From positions 1 through 64,000 of the forward strand of contig JAURIR010000003.1 of the NCBI GenBank assembly GCA_030832645.1: a DNA stretch of 64,000 bases. Direction: 5' to 3'. The position numbers and the translations under genes are program-made. Positions 8,006 to 20,029 of the stretch are shown one piece after another (position 1 is the first letter of the stretch; each line of letters opens with the position of its first letter). The notes below the pieces were generated by a model, which was not told where the DNA came from, searched no databases, and saw nothing but the letters and a program-made list of their open reading frames with translations. The DNA comes from Chitinophagales bacterium (GTDB lineage Bacteria; Bacteroidota; Bacteroidia; Chitinophagales; Chitinophagaceae).

Positions 8006-9109
8006 CTACCTAAACAGATCTTTTAATTTTCTTTCATTCTTTTTCCAAAACGAGAAAAAGGAGCCTTTTGGTAAGCCTGCATCAGGTATCATCCATGAAC
8101 GCTGGTCTTCTATCCCTTCGTAGTGTGTGTTTAAAGGATGTTCTTTATAATAGACGGGTTGATTATTAAGTTGTGATTTTAAATCAGCGAAACTCCCGGT
8201 GAATACTTGAATGCCTTCAATATTCTTTGATAGTTCCAATACAAATGATATACATCCATCCGAAACAGGATATTGATGAAATACTTTAGGTTCCAGTAAT
8301 ACTATTCTATTTGCTTTTGTATCTGCTCTCCATGTCGGGGATAAATTATAATAATTATAAATCATCGTTGGAAGCGCTGGATCAATTTGGAGTGAATTTG
8401 ACGATGGAAGATTGGTTTGTAATTCACTTGTATCTACTTCTATTAGTTCTGCTGGTGTTGACAGATCCTGCAAAACATCGTACGATATATCGAGGTAGGT
8501 CCCCTTTTGTTTACTAGCGGTATAGTGGTTGATGTTTTCTTGATTTGCAATATATTTCTTATTCGAAAATGTGCCGGCTATCCATTGCCAGGAAAGAGCG
8601 TTGCTTCCCCAATCTCCATCCAATAAATGGTAGTACATCCATTTTGCCGGGTGCATCCAATGAGATTTACCCAAGTTGCAGGCAATGAACGCACTGTACA
8701 TACGGAGGTGATTGTGCATCATACCAGATGCTGTCAGCCGTCGAATTCCATGATCGATGGCATCAATGTAAGTTTCTCCTTTTATAACTGCAACAGGAGT
8801 ACCATGGTGGTGTACATGCGTTTGCTGATTTTTTATATCACTATTGATACCTTCATTCAAATCTTGCCATACCCGTTGGAAATATTCTCTCCAAAAAAGT
8901 TGCTGAAGAAATTTTTCGCAGGAAGAATAGGAATACTTTTTTGAAACGAGGTGTTCTACTATCATTCTGGTATCGAGGACACCTCTCGATATGTATGGCG
9001 AAAGTTCAGTGATGGAACCATCAATAAAATTGCGACTCCTTCCATATCGGACAGGGTCAATACGATCCAATTGATCAACTATATCTTGGTACTTGGTTGG
9101 AATATGCAT
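8006..9109 (-). CDS. Photolyase/cryptochrome FAD-binding-domain protein lacking the canonical N-terminal antenna domain
   Basis: Begins directly with RNFIDGSITELSPYISRGVLDTR; FWREYFQRVW; LDGDWGSNALSWQWIAGTFSNKKYIANQENINHYT. Confidence 0.88.
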   Translation of the reverse strand: MHIPTKYQDIVDQLDRIDPVRYGRSRNFIDGSITELSPYISRGVLDTRMIVEHLVSKKYSYSSCEKFLQQLFWREYFQRVWQDLNEGINSDIKNQQTHVHHHGTPVAVIKGETYIDAIDHGIRRLTASGMMHNHLRMYSAFIACNLGKSHWMHPAKWMYYHLLDGDWGSNALSWQWIAGTFSNKKYIANQENINHYTASKQKGTYLDISYDVLQDLSTPAELIEVDTSELQTNLPSSNSLQIDPALPTMIYNYYNLSPTWRADTKANRIVLLEPKVFHQYPVSDGCISFVLELSKNIEGIQVFTGSFADLKSQLNNQPVYYKEHPLNTHYEGIEDQRSWMIPDAGLPKGSFFSFWKKNERKLKDLFR

Positions 9110-9112
9110 GTA

Positions 9113-9403
9113 TCAGCGTTTGCTGATTTTATTATGTGTGATCTGTCTTTGGAGTGCGCATTTGAATCGACTGATTTCAGGGTTCCTCTTTAGGGCATGT
9201 TTTTGACTGATGCCGCTGTTGACTCTTTTTCTCCATAGATTAAAACTCGATCGTTTCAATTCTTTTCGCATCAATCGTATCACCTCTGCTTCGGTGATGC
9301 CGAATTGAGCAAAAATGGCTTCAAACGGTGTACGGTCTTCCCATGCCATTTCAATGATTCGATCGATTTCTATAAGGCCTTTATTTTGTTCCATACTGCT
9401 CAT
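9113..9403 (-). CDS. TIGR03643 family protein
   Basis: IDRIIEMAWEDRTPFEAIFAQFGITEAEVIRLMRKELKRSSFNLWRKRVNSGISQKHALKR; 3 bp upstream of the photolyase-like gene; start at ATG 9403 assumed. Confidence 0.85.
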   Translation of the reverse strand: MSSMEQNKGLIEIDRIIEMAWEDRTPFEAIFAQFGITEAEVIRLMRKELKRSSFNLWRKRVNSGISQKHALKRNPEISRFKCALQRQITHNKISKR

Positions 9404-9535
9404 TTTCAAAACTTTACCTTTTATTATTGACTTTAACAAAAATCTCTATCGAAAGTTTGGTGTAAGGGATTGGCAAGTTCTTCCGGGTATTCAACACCAA
9501 TTAATTAATACCTTTATATATATATATTATAGTGA

Positions 9536-10478: not shown

Positions 10479-11276
10479 ATGGCATCTCCATTCGTTTCAA
10501 AATTGCAAGCAGAAATACAGCCGTTAAGAGAGCAATTGGTTCATCACCCCGTATATGCTTCCATTCACTCGTTGGAAGATTTACAGGTGTTTATGGAACA
10601 CCATGTGTATGCTGTATGGGATTTCATGTCGTTGTTAAAGGCATTGCAGCTTCATCTCACTTCTGTTCAAATTCCGTGGAGACCAGTTGGCAATGCTACT
10701 ACTCGTTTCTTGATCAATGAAATTGTTACGGGTGAAGAAAGTGATGTGGATGAAAACGATAATCGAACGAGTCATTTTGAACTTTATTTGAAAGCAATGC
10801 AACAGGCAGGTGCACAAACAGCATCCATCGATGCGCTTATAGAAGATGTCAATAAGAATCTCTCTGTTGCTTCAATATTATCTGCTCCATCCATACCAGA
10901 AGCTGCTAAAGGATTTATGCAAACTACATTTGATGTTATTCATTCGAACCAACCTCATTTGATGGCAGCTGTGTTTACATTTGGAAGAGAAGATTTGATT
11001 CCAGATATGTTTTTAAGCTTTATTAAAGAATTAAAAAAAGAATTTCCCAATAAGGTTAATATCATTCAATATTATATTGAGCGTCATATCGAAGTCGATG
11101 GTGGCCATCATTCTGCACTTGCATTGGAAATGACAGAAACACTTTGCGGCAACGATCCTCAAAAATGGGAAGAGGCAACATTGTTTGTAAAAAGGGCACT
11201 TCAATCTCGTCTCGCGCTTTGGGATGCGATTAACTCCAAGATCAACTCTTCTATTGAAGAAGGTCAGTACCTCTAA
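10479..11276 (+). CDS. DUF3050 domain protein (heme-oxygenase-like fold)
   Basis: LREQLVHHPVYASIHSLEDLQVFMEHHVYAVWDFMSLLKALQ...; RHIEVDGGHHSALALEM. Confidence 0.8.
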   Translation: MASPFVSKLQAEIQPLREQLVHHPVYASIHSLEDLQVFMEHHVYAVWDFMSLLKALQLHLTSVQIPWRPVGNATTRFLINEIVTGEESDVDENDNRTSHFELYLKAMQQAGAQTASIDALIEDVNKNLSVASILSAPSIPEAAKGFMQTTFDVIHSNQPHLMAAVFTFGREDLIPDMFLSFIKELKKEFPNKVNIIQYYIERHIEVDGGHHSALALEMTETLCGNDPQKWEEATLFVKRALQSRLALWDAINSKINSSIEEGQYL

Positions 11277-18523: not shown

Positions 18524-20029
18524 CTATCTACTTTTATGTAGTGCAGTAAGAAAAGATTCTGCATGATGCAAATGATTTTTCTTTTTTGAATCCTCCATCT
18601 TATCCCATGTTTTTAACAACATTGCCCAACGAGGATTTTTTGAAAATACATTTCGGTAGGTAGATAAAAATCGCCAAAAAAGCCCATCCCATATTGCTTG
18701 CCACTCTCCCTTGGGGAAGTCGCCCATCTTCATGAGATAATTCGATCCTGCAATGTAGGGTTTACTTGTAATCATACCCCCGTCACTGAATTGCGACATA
18801 CCGTATACATTTGGTACCATTACCCAATCGTATGCATCAATGTACATTTCCATGAACCATTTGTATACTTCATCTGGATGTATCTCGCAGAGCAGCATGA
18901 AATTTCCTACTACCATCAAACGTTCGATGTGATGATTGTATCCTGTTTTTAGTAATTTCTGAATAGTAATATCAATCGGTGGAATTCCGGTTGTTCCATC
19001 ATAAAATGATTTCGGCATTTTATGTTTGAAGTTCCAAAAGTTCTTCGTGCGTTGTACAGAGCCTATTTTCTGATAGGTCAATTGAACAAATTCTCTCCAT
19101 CCCATCAATTGGCGTATGATACCTTCTATACTATTAATAGGAGCCTGTCCTTTTTTATATGCATCCAACAATTTTTGAATAATATCTGCTGGAGACAACA
19201 ATCCTATATTCAACAAAGGACTGAGTACACTGTGGAACAATGTATTTTCTTTGCATACCATTGCATCTTCATAGATGCCAAAGTCTTGAAGTTTTTCTTG
19301 AATGAAAAGATCCAATGCTTTTTCTGCATCTGCGTGCGTGCAAGGGTAATATACTTTTGAATTATTTTTTTCGAATGGAGAAGTTGATTCACCAAAATGC
19401 TTCTTGAAATGAGTTTCTGTATATGTAACAGCCTCCTTGATGTACGGATTTTCTCCTGAAAAATGAATCGGAGGGATAGTAGTATTCTTTGGGATCTTTT
19501 TTCTGTTTTCTACATCGTAGGTCCAGCTTCCGCCTAGTGGTGCATTTTTCGCATCTATCAGAATATTTCTTGATTTTCTCTGTTCAATATAAAACCCTGT
19601 TTGGTAAAATGGCCGACGATTGCCCAATAGCGCAATGTCATCTTTTTTATTATTGATGAAATTAGGACTTGGAAGGAATGCTAGTTGAATTTTATACTTC
19701 TTAGAATTTTCTTCGAGTTGTTTTTCCAACCAGTTATCGTTTGGGTGAAATAGCTTGGTACGCGTGACTTTATTTTTACTGAATAGCTTGAATAAGTCAC
19801 TGATCTTTGATTCCTTTTCCTTGTTATCAATATAATGCACATCGAATTTGCTCTTACGAAGCATTGCTTCGTAGTATTTCATCGAGGAACGATGCAGCAT
19901 TATTTTTTGTTTGTGGAATGCGTATTGATTGAAAAACAATTCGTTCTCAATTACATAGATTGGAACTGATTTCTCAAATTGAGAGCAATCTTTGAATAAC
20001 TGATGAGGGAAAATGAGAAAAACCTCCAT
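18524..20029 (-). CDS. Cryptochrome/photolyase family protein (PhrB/FeS-BCP-related) without the expected C-terminal cysteine cluster
   Basis: VFLIFPHQLFKD...VYVIENELFFNQYAFHKQKIMLHRSSMKYYE; HHIERLMVVGNFMLLCEIHPDEVYKWFMEMYIDAYDWVMVPNVYGMSQFSDGGMITSKPYIAGSNYLMKMGDFPKGEWQAIWDGLFWRFL. Confidence 0.9.
   Translation of the reverse strand: MEVFLIFPHQLFKDCSQFEKSVPIYVIENELFFNQYAFHKQKIMLHRSSMKYYEAMLRKSKFDVHYIDNKEKESKISDLFKLFSKNKVTRTKLFHPNDNWLEKQLEENSKKYKIQLAFLPSPNFINNKKDDIALLGNRRPFYQTGFYIEQRKSRNILIDAKNAPLGGSWTYDVENRKKIPKNTTIPPIHFSGENPYIKEAVTYTETHFKKHFGESTSPFEKNNSKVYYPCTHADAEKALDLFIQEKLQDFGIYEDAMVCKENTLFHSVLSPLLNIGLLSPADIIQKLLDAYKKGQAPINSIEGIIRQLMGWREFVQLTYQKIGSVQRTKNFWNFKHKMPKSFYDGTTGIPPIDITIQKLLKTGYNHHIERLMVVGNFMLLCEIHPDEVYKWFMEMYIDAYDWVMVPNVYGMSQFSDGGMITSKPYIAGSNYLMKMGDFPKGEWQAIWDGLFWRFLSTYRNVFSKNPRWAMLLKTWDKMEDSKKKNHLHHAESFLTALHKSR

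Follow-up and report, generated by a model that had tools for sequence, protein, structure and literature searches.

What the [4Fe-4S] cluster does in prokaryotic (6-4) photolyases is still described as elusive (PMC12082625). One gene in the window analyzed here, a 64,000-nucleotide stretch of a contig from a Chitinophagales bacterium, raises the question of what such a protein is, and what it does, when the cysteines that would hold the cluster are missing. A first-pass annotation had placed the gene in the FeS-BCP lineage and proposed that it may stand for a cluster-free subclass with altered repair or signalling. The open reading frame starts with ATG:

18524-20029, minus strand: very probable cluster-free prokaryotic (6-4) photolyase, 501 aa, stop codon at 18524-18526 (from Pfam, solved relatives and a structure model)

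The product of this gene is a PhrB/CryB-type protein. Compared with Pfam, it matches DPRP (PF04244, E=4.9e-50) and FAD_binding_7 (E=1.9e-9), and its best structurally solved relatives are CryB (3zxs), the Caulobacter (6-4) photolyase (Cc(6-4)PL, 9hnk), SePhrB (8ijy) and PhrB (4dja), with E-values from 4e-75 to 9e-70 and approximately 30% identity to the solved enzymes. The AlphaFold2 model (pLDDT 96.1, pTM 0.94) found its best matches in the PDB in CryB/PhrB, at a TM-score of about 0.91, and the protein thus combines the DPRP N-terminal domain, the photolyase FAD domain and the PhrB fold that mark the PhrB-like group.

Ligands for a [4Fe-4S] cluster are, however, absent from the protein. It contains four cysteines (C15, C230, C259 and C381), and none lies C-terminal of C381. 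In an alignment to CryB, Cc(6-4)PL and SePhrB, the position of the first ligand (Cys1) is occupied by Pro351, and the loop that holds the other three ligand cysteines is ten residues shorter and free of cysteine, with TRMACLS ... SDYCRGCAYAVKDRTGPRACPFNLLYW of CryB aligning with TGIPPID ... GDFPKGEWQAIWDGLFW of the 501-aa protein. The two sites are located as follows:

18977-18979, minus strand: Pro351, where ligand Cys1 would be (C350 in PhrB), a position that is Cys in 113/113 cluster forms
18689-18715, minus strand: shortened loop P439-W447 (PKGEWQAIW), followed by Asp448, replacing the CxxC...C loop, net ten residues shorter (from the alignment)

None of the four conserved [4Fe-4S]-ligating cysteines of FeS-BCPs is therefore found at an equivalent position in the alignment with PhrB/CryB-type proteins, which bears out the earlier claim that they are missing; the peptides on which that claim was based had been quoted correctly. 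A shift of the ligand cysteines to neighboring positions is ruled out by the same alignment. A frameshift or assembly error is rejected as well, since the identical pattern is common to 174 relatives, including isolates, and is all-or-none.

These relatives came from four sources: the source genus and its order, named genomes, 297 Bacteroidota genomes, and 244 genomes of the cyanobacterial phylum, to which a Gastranaerophilales locus belongs. All were assigned as cluster or cluster-free by alignment. Among the 287 relatives typed, which are sequences and not independent events, a few loci being overlapping copies of one genome, 113 hold all four ligands and 174 hold none, with no intermediates; one further sequence (L125), incomplete at a contig end, stands outside this number. 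The cluster-free forms carry a signature of their own, in which the Cys1 position, present in 173 of them, is Pro in 171, Ile in one and Leu in one, accompanied by Trp443 (171/174), Asp448 (170/174) and Asp353 (172/174). Trees were built without the ligand columns. In a tree of 101 sequences a single branch (SH-aLRT 100) separates the cluster-free form from the cluster form. A carefully built tree of 25 diverse sequences gives this split 100/100 support, and all 200 bootstrap trees examined contain it. The 501-aa protein falls on the cluster-free side, among the Bacteroidota, together with two sequences of the same genus (70% and 68% identity), and sequences from small (1.6-2.7 Mb) genomes of the cyanobacterial phylum share both the branch and the signature. 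With all Cys-less members on one side of one branch, at 100/100 support, and with cysteines that are all present or all absent, the proposed cluster-free subclass is confirmed. The tree itself gives no direction of change; loss of the cluster is favored over gain because the cluster has been argued in print to be ancient, being shared with the primase PriL (PMC4619345).

The cluster-free branch is large and already published, and the gene exemplifies it well without being a discovery. In 2015, 7% of 464 homologues were reported to be without the cysteines and without Tyr460 (PMC4619345), and several orthologues have since been described that miss the cysteines (PMC12082625, citing Portero et al. 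2019). Subgroup M of the prokaryotic (6-4) photolyases, which comes from multiple lineages and includes PromaPL of Prochlorococcus, is alone among the subgroups in having none of the four cysteines, and is further characterized by a Met near the flavin N5, a broken electron chain and a complex antenna pattern (PMC9178010). PromaPL is given as a (6-4) photolyase without the cluster in PMC9178010 and PMC9426592, both citing FEBS J 2019 286:1765, and the cysteines are likewise absent from picocyanobacterial Phr2 (PMC9426592). Like these proteins, the 501-aa protein has no ligating cysteines, an interrupted electron chain (Phe392, Tyr343), a Met near the flavin N5 (Met404) and an antenna pocket of the variable kind, and it lies on one branch with the members of the cyanobacterial phylum that have 1.6-2.7 Mb genomes; unlike them, it belongs to a Bacteroidota host, and its identity to the small-genome cyanobacterial sequences is about 42-44%. 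We consider it highly probable that the gene encodes a prokaryotic (6-4) photolyase that depends on FAD and belongs to the cluster-free branch (subgroup M, PromaPL-type).

Whether absence of the ligands goes along with altered function can be judged from the sites around the flavin, the lesion and the antenna:

18929-18931, minus strand: His367, counterpart of His366, the proton donor that PhrB requires for (6-4) repair, invariant in both types
18755-18757, minus strand: Tyr425, equivalent of PhrB Tyr424 (lesion binding), invariant in both types
19514-19516, minus strand: Asp172, predicted Mg2+ ligand (Cc D178), invariant (role from PMC12082625)
19265-19267, minus strand: Asp255, predicted Mg2+ ligand (Cc D253), invariant (role from PMC12082625)
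18818-18820, minus strand: Met404, near the flavin N5 where PhrB has Glu403, Met in 173/173 cluster-free forms
19934-19936, minus strand: Phe32, at the antenna-pocket position of Glu37/38 (from the alignment; role from PMC12082625)

In PhrB, His366 is essential for (6-4) repair and the Y424F exchange abolishes lesion binding (PMC4619345), while Tyr430 supports repair (residue roles from PMC4619345 and PMC12082625). Equivalents of all three, and of both predicted Mg Asp residues, are invariant in the two types, and Trp390 is kept in both save for one exception, so that the 501-aa protein has the catalytic His, the lesion Tyr and the Mg Asp pair of the PhrB-like group. Other positions differ. 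In the electron chain of the cluster-free forms, Trp342 is replaced by Tyr in 127/173 and Tyr391 by Phe in all; the flavin-N5 position is E, M or V in the cluster forms; and the lumazine site is changed from Asp10 to His/Asn, from Glu37 to Phe/Leu/Tyr and from Trp53 to Arg/Leu. Glu37/38 contacts the lumazine ribityl in PhrB/Cc(6-4)PL (PMC12082625), and the 501-aa protein has His9, Phe32 and Arg47 in place of the lumazine residues of the D10, E37, W53 type, which are themselves not universal in FeS-BCPs. Compared with Agrobacterium PhrB and Rhodobacter CryB, the protein is thus alike in fold, FAD domain, His366, the Mg Asp pair, Tyr424, Tyr430 and Trp390, and unlike in its missing [4Fe-4S] ligands, its loop shorter by ten residues, its Tyr in place of W342, Phe in place of Y391 and Met in place of E403, and the changed lumazine residues. 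SePhrB of Synechococcus elongatus, which has an 8-HDF antenna, shares the fold, the repair residues and the Met at N5, but retains all four cysteines. An 8-HDF antenna made via FO synthase was considered for the source genome and rejected, as no FO synthase was seen there and the only two CofH-like matches were MqnC and MqnE of menaquinone synthesis. A lumazine synthase (PF00885) match was also missing from the source assembly, although present in 14/14 control genomes, and this is more likely an assembly gap (93% complete) than a true absence.

The invariant repair residues, set beside the changed chain, N5 and antenna sites, lead us to read the protein as an ordinary (6-4) photolyase in which a protein core stands in for the cluster and the antenna is different or absent. 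By analogy with PhrB, it most likely repairs (6-4) photoproducts with FADH-, around a packed protein core at the cluster site: blue or UVA light would excite the reduced FAD, from which an electron would reach the (6-4) lesion, with His367 and Mg2+ assisting the repair. Cluster mutants of PhrB are insoluble (PMC4619345), hence a cluster-free fold must be stabilized differently; the shorter loop, with the conserved Pro351, Trp443 and Asp448, may fill the space of the cluster and would presumably pack and stabilize the C-terminal helices, a role that the cluster plays in PhrB. The changed pocket residues suggest that an antenna, if any, would be bound otherwise than lumazine is in PhrB. Another contig of the source genome encodes a full-length photolyase that, judged by eye from its sequence, looks like CPD class I, which makes (6-4) lesions the likely job of the gene at 18524-20029.

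Other readings of the cluster-free branch carry little weight by comparison. A CPD photolyase was proposed as likely for picocyanobacterial Phr2, an argument made from the missing cluster (PMC9426592), yet a switch of the branch to cyclobutane dimers seems quite unlikely to us, given that the equivalents of His366, Tyr424, Tyr430 and both Mg Asp residues, all either required for (6-4) repair in PhrB or associated with it, do not vary, that a separate full-length photolyase is already present in the host, and that PromaPL is called a (6-4) photolyase in other papers (PMC9178010). Full conservation of the lesion-binding and proton-donor residues also makes a light sensor (bacterial cryptochrome) devoid of repair function very improbable, even though CryB of Rhodobacter, the best match, affects gene expression (PMC9178010) and W342 of the electron chain is Tyr in the 501-aa protein; no recurrent signalling gene was found among the neighbors examined. 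Continued binding of a cluster through other ligands can be given hardly any credence: four cysteines persist elsewhere in the protein, but C15, C230 and C259 are distant in sequence from the cluster site, the loop at the site is shortened and Cys-free, certain cluster-free relatives hold just 1-3 cysteines in the entire protein, and no support for such ligands was found. We thus retain the reading as a cluster-free (6-4) photolyase. Besides the cluster, the antenna pocket and some of the electron chain do differ. The altered repair suggested by the first-pass annotation is unsupported, as the repair and lesion-binding residues are invariant in both types and, in the Bacteroidota sample, the genomes with a match have one type each; for altered signalling no support was found.

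A further gene in the window (8006-9109, minus strand) is photolyase-like; its 367-aa product has an N-terminal FAD domain (PF03441, E=6e-20) and looks like a short photolyase-like protein (SPL/NewPHL). The gene directly adjoins a DUF2805/TIGR03643 gene (the pair spanning 8006-9439, minus strand). A DUF3050/haem-oxygenase-like protein (10479-11276, plus strand; PF11251, E=6e-99) is encoded between both photolyase genes. In about nine relatives the cluster-free gene has a similar photolyase-like gene no more than a few kb away; the short photolyase-like and DUF2805 genes were the only recurring flanks, in some relatives, and are too few to argue function. A promoter and terminator scan gave promoter-like sites no commoner than in shuffles, and a repeat search gave none of note.

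Across the 297 Bacteroidota genomes, the cluster form was found in 70 and the cluster-free form in 31 (source genome included), with one match each and none with both, versus 7.3 expected with both if the types were independent (hypergeometric P=1.4e-4, which is only indicative, the genomes not being independent). This pattern, which could be partly a matter of ancestry, is indicative of two types that replace each other in the Bacteroidota sample, and genomes of the source genus itself divide between them. In the order of one SAR11-type locus the family occurs in 126/147 genomes, and of the best-scoring copies newly fetched from it 29/29 are cluster-free; for the order to which a SAR86 locus belongs, the corresponding values are 102/151 and 30/30, giving 59/59 best-scoring fetched copies for both surface-ocean orders together (L292-L350). 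Cluster-free copies also occur in Actinomarina and in small-genome (1.6-2.7 Mb) members of the cyanobacterial phylum. These observations suggest that the cluster-free form prevails as the prokaryotic (6-4) photolyase of the sunlit open ocean, with iron sparing as a natural guess at the reason. It is possible, although we would sooner doubt than affirm it, that the cluster-free enzyme is a one-for-one replacement of FeS-BCPs of single origin, iron-sparing or oxidation-proof, with a Pro/Trp/Asp core in place of the cluster, and usual in SAR11, SAR86, Actinomarina and picocyanobacteria, the most abundant lineages of the sunlit ocean.

The subclass itself is confirmed and was already in the literature, and functional novelty is unsupported. 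The cluster-free SAR11-type and SAR86 copies are perhaps the best lead of this analysis. Enzymes that are cluster-free by nature and keep the same active site offer a clean comparison for what the cluster adds, and the 501-aa Bacteroidota protein is one usable test protein among many.
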